NCBI GenBank assembly: GCA_004369045.1
Contig: ML213512.1
Coordinates: 863,510 to 927,509, forward strand
Reading direction: 5' to 3'
DNA: 64,000 nucleotides
DNA from: Heliocybe sulcata
Taxonomy: Eukaryota > Basidiomycota > Agaricomycetes > Gloeophyllales > Gloeophyllaceae
The notes beneath the pieces were generated by a model, which worked only from the letters and a program-made list of their open reading frames with translations, had not been told where the DNA came from and made no database searches. This document shows, piece after piece, positions 6,359 to 43,880 of this stretch. Every line of letters begins with the position of its first letter. The stretch's first letter is position 1. The translations under genes were made by a program, and so were the position numbers.

Positions 6359-7157
6359 GGAAACATCCTGGGATTTGCCAGAAGGCAACCTGAGCGAACT
6401 GAGAAAGGGGAAGTGAGGCGGACATGGAAGCAACGACGGACGCGGAAAGGGTACGCGCTCTCTCGGTAACATTGAATGGGAAGGGCGCACAGCCGGGAGT
6501 AGACCGCATTACGTTTTGTGATTAATAGCACTCCGATCTTGATCGCAAGAAACTGTTTGGGACACAGAGAGCTGTCCCATTGAGCTTGGGATCTGCGCCT
6601 GTCGCGCACAATGACCTACAGGCACGCACGAGGGTGTGTTGTTCGAGCAGACGAAACGCGAGCGCGGGCTCGTCAAAAGTTCCGTGGTCTGTCACTAGCT
6701 TCGTGTTGGGCTCCTTGATGCGCGTTCAGGCGGGCAGGCAGTGGCTGTAGCCAGGGGACAAGGCAAAGGAGTTAAAGTCAGCGACAGAACCGCCGTCCTA
6801 ACGCCCTAGGCATCAGGGATGAAAAGACCCTGCCAAGGCGACGAGAAAGTGCTAAGCCACCAATGATTGGACACTCTGGCAATCACTACGTGGAGGCTTG
6901 CAAAAGTCTGACGGGTGTGATAAAGTCCGCATATAACATAGCGGACAGTCCTTCGCATGAGCGAAAGAGGCTAAAGGCCGCGAACTGTTTGTCTTTTGCA
7001 AGGCGCCGAGGAGGACAGTGCCCCGGCCATCTCCGACCACGCGTCGATCCCGTGACCGTAGCCGCGTCCTTTATTTCCGCGCAGGCCTCCCCGCTTCCTC
7101 CTCGCCACTTCCTACCACCATCACTAACATTCAAGCTCTATTTTTGTCTCGACAGTT

Positions 7158-7798
7158 ATTCCCAAAGAAGCTCGCAAGGAACGTCCTGGCCTCCAGCGCG
7201 GTATCCCGTATGACGCCTCGCGCATCCCTGGTGTAGCGGGAAAGACGGCTGCGGGCGAGAGCCCACAAGACGAGCGCGGAGACAAAGCGGACGACATGCT
7301 CACAGCATACGACGTTGTGCCACTTCTGGAGATGTTCGAAAGGGTATGCCACCGCTCCTTCTATATGAGCATTTCTCATCGCTAATGATCCAAGAGCACC
7401 GTGAAGAACAAGCCAGCACCACGACGTAGCATTATGAGGAAGACCGAGGTGCCTTCCTCGCGCAGGATGGCTGGAGATTGCAGAAAGAAGAGTGCCACTC
7501 GGAAGGTCCGATTCTTTGAGGTACGTGAAGGCGACAAGAGCAAGCGAATGAGCGAGGGTACGGTCGACAAGCGCGTCAGAAGTTCGGTGCGTAATCTGTC
7601 GGTTAGTTTACACGAGCCCTGCTGAAATTCGGTCAATAGTGGGCCTCGCCTGAAGCCAACATACCAACTGACCTCGAAGGATACGGCGCCGACAGTGAGT
7701 CTTCAAGTACGGCAGGAGATGACGCCGCTATGGTGCACCTTCAACGGCGGCTTGAAACGCTCGATATGGGCGACGGTGGGAGGATAGCCTACCAATGA
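7158..7798 (+). CDS. cassette gene 1, copy A (orphan KVRF protein; ATG not conserved)
   Basis: Unrecognised family seen three times in this window. Exons 7158-7343, 7395-7586 and 7640-7798, separated by introns of 51 nt (branch GCTAATG) and 53 nt (ending CAATAG). Both introns are at the same positions and in phase 0 as in copies B and C. The product would be about 178 aa: an N-terminal block RPGLQRGIPYD, a middle basic block with IMRKT.VPS and ATRKVRFFE, and an acidic exon 3 with DLEGYGADSESSS and a terminal RRLETLDMGDG helix. At the position where B and C have ATG-CCC-AAA this copy has ATT-CCC-AAA, and no in-frame ATG was found just upstream. Either it uses a near-cognate start, an upstream exon is spliced in (TCTCGACAG at 7147-7155 resembles an acceptor), or the copy has lost its start. 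There is no TM segment or signal peptide. KVRF fits the RVxF docking consensus for protein phosphatase 1, which is inference only. Confidence 0.6.
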
Positions 7799-8149
7799 AT
7801 GAGATACTGAGAATGCGCGTGTCGTCTGGTGAATATACGTAATCTTCAGAGTGTTCCGCAATCCACTTCGTAAGGCGTGCTTGCGACCAGCAGAACTTAG
7901 ATCATTATTTTGTCTCTCTAAAAACTTTGCCCGTCGATCTGGGGCAGTCGCCCAGATCTCTCGTACCCTGTACATAAACTCAGAACGGGTCGCTTTCAGA
8001 GACCGCGGTCCGAGAAAGTACTCGAACATCGTGGACGGTGTGTATCGGGTCCGTAATGAGCGGGCAATGGGCTCCAGAAGCCGGCCAGCTCCGAGGGAGT
8101 AGATAAGCCTCGATGGGGCGGTCACGGTCCTTCTGACTTTTCGACCCGA

Positions 8150-8174
8150 ACCACCACCACCACCACCACCACCA
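8150..8174 (+). repeat. (ACC)n microsatellite before cassette gene 2A
   Basis: About eight ACC units end 10 bp before the ATG at 8184. Copies B and C have only ACCACAACCAT at this place, so the tract expanded in copy A. It would lie in the 5' leader of gene 2. Confidence 0.85.
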
Positions 8175-8183
8175 GCGCCTGCT

Positions 8184-41169: not shown

Positions 41170-41704
41170 CGTTCACGACCGTGTCGAGCGAAAGAAAAGA
41201 TATCCTCTTTGCGAGACTTTCTTTGCTTCCTGTTCTATCCTTTTGGCAGGCAGCTCTCTGAGCAGAATGCTCCATTCGTAGGCAAAATTGTGTTCGGCGC
41301 TGCATTCTGCATGAGCGTCCGAATCTCTTCTTCGACGCCGTAGCCAGCGCTGGAAAAAGGAACATTCAGGCCTAGGCAAACGCGAGAATTACGTTCAGGG
41401 AAGTGTTCCCTGGAGGAACAAATGCGGCTTGGTACGACTGGTACCGTTCACGGCTTCTGATCTCCTTGCCAATATGGTCATGCTCGATCATATGCTTGCT
41501 CATTGTCTGTTTCACCAGCAGGAAGTCAAACTCGGGGTCCGCTGCTTTACTATAAGTACAGGGCGTTGCGCCTATCCGCTCAGACCCCCCATCCCCTCAT
41601 GTCTAGCTCTCGCACGAATCTACCGCGCCGTATGTCAATGATCGTCAATGCTCCACGCAAAATGACACACACACCTTCGAAACTATACCTTCTTCGTGAA
41701 CGGC

Positions 41705-42687
41705 TTAGAATCTGGCAGGGCGGTAGCCCAAATCCATCTCGACCGTGTCACCCGATATCCAGCGATGAAGAGTAGCCCGGTCAATGTTGTCTGCGTATGC
41801 CGGTCTCCCTGGAACGGCCTCGTTGAAAGCGGCCGGGATATTTTCGTCCACATACTCCATGACAGTGGAGTGCCGGTTTGTTGTTAAATTGGTTTGCAGG
41901 GCAAGCCTCTAATAACAAATCTTCAGTTAGGTGATTCACTACGACGGAGAACACCGAGAACGTACTGCTGGAGCATGGATACCTTCGGGAGCGTCATCAT
42001 CCTCTCTTTCCCCCACCTCCCTGCCATCGTCATCTCCTTCAGCTTCATTGCGCTCGCGGCTCTCCATATCGTCGTCACTGTCTTCATCAGCAATGGTTAC
42101 GTCGTCGTCTTCGGGGTATTCGCCAGCGACGTAACATGCTTCCGACACGACCCACTGCATGCCTTCTATGACAGGGTCGCTGATACTGTAACCCCCTTTG
42201 AGCCGCGTCGCGATCATGCGGTTGAGCCAGTCTTTATAGCTGGCCGGGAGACGGAGGCTATCAATGGCATCTTGGAGGATCGTGACCTGGTGCGGCACGA
42301 GTTGTTAATTTCCATCACTCTTGCATACGAGGTATGCAGACAGCGTACGTATTCGGTGCCTGTGGTTCCCACCGCATCCTGATCATTCTCATCGGTACAC
42401 ATCTCGACCGCATCGTCGACGCCTTCCTCGTGTTCCGCACCGTCGTCGCGCTCATCGTCGTCCTCCGTCTCCATCTCTTCATCGTCTTCACACTCTTGAC
42501 CTCCGACATTCCCCTCGCATCCCCGACGCGGGATATAACCGATCTGCCACACCACCCACAACATACCCTCGATGACACGGGGAGGATCCTTGTATCCAGA
42601 TTGAGCCCGCTCCCTCATCGTGTCGTCGAGCCATTTCCTCATATCATCAGATAGATCGTCTACAGTGACCTCGCAAATGGTCGGCAT
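41705..42687 (-). CDS. cassette gene 2, copy C (acidic duplicated-module protein)
   Basis: Exons 42687-42349, 42286-41966 and 41908-41705, phase 0, 287 aa. Introns of 62 nt (GTACGC..ATTAAC..ACCAG) and 57 nt (GTACGT..CCTAAC..TTATTAG) match copy B base for base over long stretches. Module 1: RKWLDDTMRERAQSGYKD with RVIEGMLWVVW. Module 2: KDWLNRMIATRLKGGYSISD with PVIEGMQWVVS. Between them lies an Asp/Glu-rich linker. The tail has YVDENIPAAFNEAVPGRPAY, DNIDRATLHRWI and DLGYRPARF, equal in length to copy A. Reading without splicing intron 1 runs into another frame. It starts 402 bp after gene 1. It is the reference copy for the family because no part is missing relative to the others. Confidence 0.78.
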
Positions 42688-43088
42688 GGCAGGCAATGGT
42701 TGTGGTTCGAGTTCAAGAGTCAGAAGAACCTCGGCGGGGCCATCGTCGCTTATCTACTAGCTCGGGGCCGGCCGGCGTCTGCAGCTCATTGTTCGCTGCT
42801 TAAGGACCCGGTGCTCACCGTCCACGATGTTCCAGTACTTTCTCGGAACGTGGTCTCTGAAAGCGGCCCGTTCTGAGATTATCTACACGGACTGAAGGTT
42901 TTGGGTGGAATTCTGGTGTGCAATGTTCGACTACGCGATATTGACGGAGAAAAAAGACTCCAGAGAGACAAACTAGTGATCTATGCTTGCTGGTGGCAAG
43001 TGTGCCTTACGAGAGTGGCTAAAGCAGCAGTCTGGCATTTGATTCGTAGTGGGTCCCCAGACGACACAAGCATTCCTTGGGACTTCTT

Positions 43089-43751
43089 CTACCTCATCCA
43101 TTCGTAGGTTCTTCTCCCACTGTCATCCATATCGAGTGTCTCGAGGCGATATTGAAGGTGCACCATGTCTGCGTCATGTCTTGCCATACTTGAAGACTCG
43201 TTATCGGCGGCATATTCTTCAAGGTCAGTTATTATGTCGGTCTTAGGCGAGGCAGACTAGTAACTGAATATTAACAGGACTCGTAGAGCGAACTCGACAC
43301 GCCACGTACGGGTTGCTTGCCGTGTTTGTCAATACTACGCTCGCGGCCCTCTGCATTCACCGGCTCGTTCTTGTCGGCTTCACCTCTTTTAAGGAATCGA
43401 ACCTTCCGAGTGGCACTCTTCTTTGCTGAATCTGCACCCATCTTGCGCGAGGAAGGCGCGGCGATGTTCCTCATAATGCCACGTCGTGCTGCCGGCTTGT
43501 TCTTTACGGTGCTCTTTGGATAGTTAACGCTGAGAGATGCTCGTATAAAAGCAGCGGTGGCATACCCTTTCCATCTTCCCCAGAAGTGGCGAGACGTCGT
43601 ATGTCGTGAGCATGTCGTCCGCTTTGTGGCCGCGCTCGTCTTGCTGCCCCTCGGCCACAGCAGTTCCCACTGCTACACCACGGATGCACAAGGCGTCATA
43701 CGGGATACCGCGCTGGAGGCCAGGACGTTTCTTGCATGTATCTTTGGGCAT
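43089..43751 (-). CDS. cassette gene 1, copy C (orphan KVRF protein)
   Basis: Exons 43751-43566 (186 nt, exactly as in B), 43513-43310 (204 nt, exactly as in B) and 43256-43089, phase 0, 185 aa. Introns are 52 nt (branch GTTAACT) and 53 nt (GTACGT..TTACTAG). Conserved blocks: MPKDTCKKRPGLQRGIPYD; KADDMLTTYDVSPLL; a basic exon 2 with RRGIM-like and SATRKVRFLK; an acidic exon 3 with TDLEEYAADNESSS, then HLQYRLETLDMDDSGRRTYE. No signal peptide, TM segment or Cys/His metal pattern. The strict length conservation of exons 1 and 2 between B and C, despite base changes, indicates constraint on the protein. Confidence 0.75.
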
Positions 43752-43880
43752 AGATGGAAAAATGAACTGGAGCTCGAATGTCGGTGGTGGCGAGCGCAGA
43801 AATGAAGGACGCGACTACGGTCACGGGATCGACACGTGGTCGAAAATGGCCGGGCCATCGTCCTCCTCGACGCTTTGCGC

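Follow-up and report, generated by a model that had tools for sequence, protein, structure and literature searches.

The stretch analyzed here, a window of 64,000 nucleotides (C10:863510-927509, a contig of the 31.6-Mb genome of Heliocybe sulcata, a wood-rotting basidiomycete of the Gloeophyllales), carries three copies of a cassette of two adjacent genes, designated gene 1 and gene 2. The initial annotation had described just these three units (A, B, and C below). Their common order and strand stand, but the count was too low: there are seven paired copies within ~96 kb of this single contig, four of them outside the window, plus a solo gene 1 and relics. The gene-pair family is real, larger than first noted, and so far known from one species, and of its genomic description we are nearly certain. 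DNA and protein searches of the genome placed each of the seven cassettes as follows.

C10:811.3-813.4 kb, plus strand: cassette E
C10:837.0-838.9 kb, minus strand: cassette F
C10:852.9-855.0 kb, minus strand: cassette G
C10:858.8-860.9 kb, minus strand: cassette D
C10:870.7-872.7 kb, plus strand: cassette A
C10:879.0-880.9 kb, plus strand: cassette B
C10:905.2-907.3 kb, minus strand: cassette C

The genes of the three copies in the window, in window coordinates (used below wherever C10 is not named), read as follows, with protein lengths in amino acids (aa).

7158..7798, plus strand: copy A gene 1 (exons 7158-7343, 7395-7586, 7640-7798), 178 codons from ATT, at a conserved start without ATG
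8184..9179, plus strand: copy A gene 2 (exons 8184-8537, 8598-8918, 8976-9179), 292 aa when spliced; the public model, P0011, has 312 aa
15483..16109, plus strand: copy B gene 1 (exons 15483-15668, 15721-15924, 15978-16109), 173 aa, equal to P0006
16532..17400, plus strand: copy B gene 2 (exons 16532-16867, 16930-17256, 17314-17400), 249 aa, equal to P0002
43089..43751, minus strand: copy C gene 1 (exons 43566-43751, 43310-43513, 43089-43256), 185 aa; P0008, its public record, covers 109 aa and is partial
41705..42687, minus strand: copy C gene 2 (exons 42349-42687, 41966-42286, 41705-41908), 287 aa, equal to P0001

In the alignment of the seven cassettes, gene 1 precedes gene 2 at all seven gene 2 loci found. 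From the gene 1 stop to the gene 2 ATG, the spacer measures 385 bp in A, 422 bp in B, and 401 bp in C, with a range of 375 to 422 bp in six copies. The duplicated blocks reach 5.4 kb and take in neighbors, and their ends vary between copy pairs. In the whole genome, matches to the family at E values (E) of 1e-3 or lower were confined to C10 among the best candidates scored; weak matches lie on contigs C3 (E 0.023) and C17 (E 0.012). Since these searches score best candidates only, and since the solo gene 1, copy H, was overlooked when gene 1 of E served as the genome-wide query and emerged from tblastn of the 177-kb region C10:780-957 kb, diverged copies elsewhere could be missed.

Both genes have two introns at homologous positions, in phase 0 everywhere except in gene 1 of F, where a 1-bp deletion shifts the frame. 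The conserved positions and phase first reported for A, B, and C, with lengths of 53 nt for intron 2 of gene 1 and 57 nt for intron 2 of gene 2, were thus recovered in those copies, F gene 1 being the one departure in phase. Intron 2 of gene 1 is 53 nt in D as well, 55 nt in E and G, and 56 nt in F. Intron 2 of gene 2 can be cut as a 57-nt GT-AG intron in all seven copies; a further GT lies 4 nt downstream in A to E and G, and the public models of A to E take the 57-nt form. Spliced and public models agree for seven genes, namely, gene 2 of C, B, E (P0003), and D (P0010) and gene 1 of B, E (P0007), and G (P0005). In A, the public model of gene 2 keeps the 60-nt intron 1; the corresponding intron of D is 59 nt, so that its retention would shift the frame, which favors splicing. 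Among the public proteins found, none corresponds to gene 1 of A, D, or H or to gene 2 of G.

Purifying selection acts on both genes. Nei-Gojobori omega was computed for six copies (F dropped), giving 15 pairs per gene. For gene 2, omega ranges from 0.35 to 0.56, with a 95% upper bound below 1 in all 15 pairs. For gene 1, it ranges from 0.34 to 0.87 in the 13 pairs for which it is finite, and the upper bound lies below 1 in 14 of the 15; these 14 include C-E and C-G, in which saturated synonymous divergence (dS) leaves no point estimate. Between groups the omegas are rough, because several dS values exceed 1. The gene 1 pair E-G (0.87; 0.47-1.94) is not distinguishable from neutral. As an off-frame control, 24 omegas from 12 pairs fell between 0.69 and 1.74, against 0.35 to 0.62 in the true frame for 11 of these pairs; the remaining one, E-G gene 1, has true and off-frame values that are alike.

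The start of gene 1 is ATT in A and D versus ATG in B, C, E, F, and G. No in-frame ATG occurs between the ATT site and the preceding stop in A, and the same is true of D. The common ATT suggests that the ATG may have been lost before A and D split, in which case another start would be used; inspection of A shows a candidate 3' splice site directly before the ATT. Read from ATT in both copies, gene 1 of A and D has an omega of 0.39 (0.26-0.57), and residues 1 to 46 have one of 0.20 (0.06-0.54).

In B and C, the first and second halves differ in history, and the zones in which one history gives way to the other lie just ahead of gene 2.

16450..16502, plus strand: switch zone of copy B, in a conserved element just 5' of gene 2
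42717..42769, minus strand: switch zone of copy C, 5' of gene 2

The case for an exchange rests on the abruptness of this switch, on identity along the cassette, and on dS. In both copies, sites at which D and E (or A and G) differ favor D/A before one point and E/G after it. Maximum chi-square values were 210 to 295, a level that none of 2000 permutations reached in any of the four tests (B and C, each with D/E and A/G), and put the switch at column 1601-1610 or 1638-1640 of the alignment; in the test of B with C against D, it fell at columns 1588-1591 (0/2000). Of two controls, A with D against E gave no clear switch (132/2000) and E with G against D a weak one elsewhere (6/2000). The permutations shuffle sites and leave rate variation along the cassette unmodeled. 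In windows of 120 columns, identity between B and C is 0.62 to 0.88 before column 1560 and 0.83 to 0.98 after it, except for the last window (0.68), and the rise extends into the noncoding 3' flank. The B-C dS is 0.61 in gene 1 versus 0.17 in gene 2. A single exchange event may be common to B and C. In these two copies, therefore, the partners have not been together throughout. Tree topology was also considered as proof of reassortment and was rejected, as the two trees compared for it, trees 1 and 3, are one identical unrooted tree. None of gene 1, spacer, and gene 2 rejects that tree; tree 2 is rejected by gene 2 and the 3' flank (p-AU 5e-5 and 1.5e-4) and not by gene 1 or the spacer. The gene 1 tree is poorly resolved within A to D (supports 47 and 57).

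Other copies are broken, solitary, or fragmentary. Copy F is broken in both genes, by the deletion in gene 1 and, in gene 2, by GC in place of GT at the intron 1 donor together with a nonsense codon. Further loci carry gene 1 sequence only, among them the following.

C10:810271-810916, plus strand: solo gene 1 copy H, intact, 178 aa, with phase-0 introns of 57 and 52 nt
12853..13174, plus strand: gene 1 relic between A and B (tblastn E 1.5e-6 and 2.0e-6), its limits being those of the protein matches

No gene 2 follows H before the start of cassette E. In the 177-kb region, H matches other gene 1 copies modestly by tblastn (lowest E values, 1.3e-4 for copy E and 2.9e-4 for copy D); it agrees with them in its introns, its start (MPKETRK), its KRKVRFADEG core region, and its C-terminal helix region, and it carries their promoter element. 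The relic contains an in-frame stop, and the RVxF core described below was not seen in it. A second gene 1 relic, 5' of G, resembles part of exon 2 of H. A 123-aa open reading frame (ORF) after the first relic (13488-13859, plus strand) was tried as a divergent gene 2 and rejected (profile comparison probability below 3). It has two ~40-aa repeats and a paralog at C10:752434-752787 (65% identity) and was filed as a separate orphan family. The initial annotation had named homologs of either gene commonly occurring alone as evidence against its pairing claim; intact H goes part of the way there for gene 1, while every gene 2 locus found is paired.

That neither protein belongs to a recognized family holds within the searches made. 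In Pfam, no family passed the cutoff for either protein (best subthreshold E 0.02); gene 2 has a weak match to phage Mu Gp27 (E 0.027) that is far below it. NCBIfam and PHROGs, searched with P0001, P0003, P0010, P0006, and P0007, gave nothing convincing, the best PHROGs match being phrog_29678, with P0001 only (E 0.0011), over stretch 106-206, which includes module 2 and acidic sequence. By sequence, the PDB held no match to gene 1 and one to gene 2 (E 0.89). Outside H. sulcata, no relative was found at E up to 10 among 5.8 billion proteins, a search of limited sensitivity in which the inclusion of close-relative genomes was unchecked and the queries were gene 2 of C, four gene 1 copies, and six gene 2 copies, divergent H not being one of them. 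Among the papers found that mention Heliocybe sulcata, no title or abstract opening concerned this gene family, and a search on tandem orphan genes with gene conversion in Agaricomycetes found no paper.

The duplicated module reported earlier in gene 2 is real, as modules 1 and 2 match each other with an hhalign probability of 97.7 (E 2e-12; one comparison). In six copies, gene 1 proteins are basic (isoelectric point, 9.2 to 10.4) and gene 2 proteins acidic (4.1 to 4.2). Structure models of low confidence give gene 1 as coil with one C-terminal helix (mean pLDDT 52) and gene 2 as helix pairs (41); the gene 1 protein is probably disordered. All seven cassettes and H encode an R-x-V-R-F core in gene 1 that matches the RVxF type of docking motif for protein phosphatase 1 (PP1).

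7500..7514, plus strand: R-K-V-R-F codons of copy A, RVxF-type core by pattern match, predicted PP1 docking
15826..15840, plus strand: R-K-V-R-F codons of copy B, by pattern match
43394..43408, minus strand: R-K-V-R-F codons of copy C, by pattern match

The pattern [HKR][ACHKMNQRSTV]V[CHKNQRST][FW], one form of the RVxF motif, occurs once in each of the six gene 1 copies tested and in none of six gene 2 proteins; F and H fit it by eye. Shuffled gene 1 proteins contain it in 0.5 to 1.6% of cases. Of the 194 columns in which seven gene 1 proteins were aligned, 18 are invariant, most densely at R.VRF; acidic residues follow the core shortly in most copies, and a SILK-like motif, [GS]IMR, lies 24 residues before it in A, B, C, and D. 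Published work gives the RVxF consensus as [RK]x0-1[VI]{P}[FW] (PMC4794898) and that of SILK as [GS]IL[RK] (PMC6035837), and it reports KVRF in GADD34 (PMC10743859). On the strength of motif conservation, predicted disorder, and charge, docking of gene 1 to PP1 may be proposed, although it is somewhat less likely than not. Several observations weigh against it. According to PMC4794898, a looser RVxF consensus is met by chance in ~25% of proteins, and the extended pattern given there, with [KR][KR] before the core, is present by eye in E, F, and H and not in A to D or G. Among 10000 shuffles, 348 (3.5%) yield a five-column window as dense as the core, and 1185 yield a run of three. The SILK-like motif has M for L, its pattern having been loosened to fit, and is absent from E and G by pattern and from F and H by eye. 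The structure models, too, are weak.

A further conserved element is a putative promoter element of gene 1, TCCCGTGACCG.

7047..7060, plus strand: gene 1 promoter element of copy A, holding TCCCGTGACCG, ~100 bp 5' of the start
43816..43829, minus strand: gene 1 promoter element of copy C, holding TCCCGTGACCG

This string, picked after the alignment was inspected, occurs 26 times in the genome versus 20 for a reversed control; seven occurrences are on C10, all 5' of gene 1 copies (H, E, F, G, D, A, and C), and B has two changes. With one mismatch allowed, the window holds three matches, a number reached by 14 of 100 shuffles and thus not unusual. Common descent accounts for the sharing of the element.

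Several neighbors lie in or near the cluster. A 280-aa ORF without a Pfam match is present as 96% identical mirrored copies beside A (5516-6355, plus strand) and D (C10:862023-862862, minus strand), with a diverged copy at C10:791.7-792.5 kb. In the middle of this inverted duplication, between D and A, stands a Cdc20/Slp1-type WD40 gene (1734-3374, minus strand), one of two loci whose matches pass the Pfam cutoff; its position may be coincidence. A HET-domain (heterokaryon incompatibility) ORF lies between B and C (20299-22290, plus strand), and a Cyclin N-terminal domain ORF lies at 60402-61340 (minus strand). Outside the window are a retrotransposon-like ORF with integrase, Tf2-1-like SH3, and chromo domains (C10:796058-797806, minus strand; L010:6058-7806) and an ORF holding the last part of a Pkinase_fungal (fungal protein kinase) domain (C10:802848-803873, plus strand; L011:2848-3873).

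Taken as a whole, the reading that we tentatively put forward, at somewhat less than even chances, is that of an orphan pair restricted to Heliocybe as far as searched, with a PP1-docking gene 1 and a gene 2 partner. In it, segmental, partly inverted duplication expanded the pair into a cluster that includes the Cdc20-type gene, followed by recombination between copies. Gene 1 would be a disordered adaptor that docks PP1 through R-x-V-R-F, with [GS]IMR in A to D, and its target or targeting partner would be gene 2, whose acidic product is modeled as repeated helix pairs, such that each pair might steer PP1 to something lineage specific. From the fixed pairing, the initial annotation had suggested that the two products work together, for example as an accessory or selfish system; the pairing was seen at every gene 2 locus found, but cooperation and selfishness remain hypotheses. 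Duplicated blocks of up to 5.4 kb would in any case carry along two genes that lie ~0.4 kb from each other, which makes pairing weaker evidence. With H solo and halves recombined, the map can be explained without cooperation. That the two products cooperate physically is less likely than not.

It may equally well be that this is an ordinary fast-evolving orphan family, in which local segmental duplication carried along unrelated neighbors with no common function. The short spacer is what such a process would give, as are blocks that took in the 280-aa ORF too, the intact solo H, and halves split by recombination; less readily explained are the gene 1 kept in front of every gene 2 locus found, the joint breakage of both genes in F, and the complementary charge of the products. 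A selfish killer-antidote or nonself recognition cassette, in which a harmful product is paired with a protective one and half exchange along with duplication makes new specificities, is unlikely. Seven divergent local copies in one species so far, decayed copies, recombination between halves, and a HET-domain gene nearby would suit it, but selection is purifying on average rather than diversifying, no known domain emerged from Pfam, NCBIfam, or PHROGs, and at least one half exchange has occurred, which would be surprising if the partners of a pair were tightly matched. More speculative still, and quite improbable, is a modular lineage system in which variant disordered PP1-docking proteins would be reshuffled against equally variant acidic helical-repeat partners by recombination in the conserved spacer, for self/nonself or selfish control of the phosphatase. 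A transposon or virus origin is very improbable, since, for all the multicopy clustering and the Tf2-type integrase ORF in the region, block ends differ between pairs where fixed termini would be expected, matches at E of 1e-3 or lower were all on one contig (among the best candidates), none of the viral contigs picked up with one or two peptide patterns was confirmed by tblastn, and neither protein matched a transposon family in Pfam, strong hits of that kind being what the initial annotation had named as evidence against its own claim, with the phage Mu Gp27 match subthreshold.

Lineage-specific gene clusters are common and seldom explained. With seven natural replicates, a solo copy, a dead copy, two constrained start-less copies, and a mapped half exchange, this cluster makes the joint function of two orphan genes testable. 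Should gene 1 indeed bind PP1, it would count as a new arrival among the regulators of that essential phosphatase.

The cassette can be set beside three known systems. Fungal killer meiotic drivers include wtf and Podospora Spok, for which the comparison is the same as for tdk1. For S. pombe tdk1, the likeness lies in multiple copies, confinement to one species so far, and decaying copies; the cassettes differ in having two genes per unit and no domain similarity that we found. Basidiomycete HD1-HD2 mating-type pairs are repeated adjacent gene pairs that diverge and recombine within their locus, as the cassettes do; those pairs are typically divergently oriented, whereas the cassette genes share one strand and have no homeodomain match in Pfam. 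Finally, PP1 regulators with RVxF and, in some members, SILK motifs (Rif1, Inhibitor-2, and GADD34/PPP1R15 are examples) differ from gene 1, which has no Pfam or PDB sequence match and a SILK-like motif that is degenerate and absent from E to H. Gene 1 nevertheless resembles them in being basic and probably disordered, in its R-x-V-R-F core with acidic residues after it in most copies, and, for A to D, in the SILK-like [GS]IMR.

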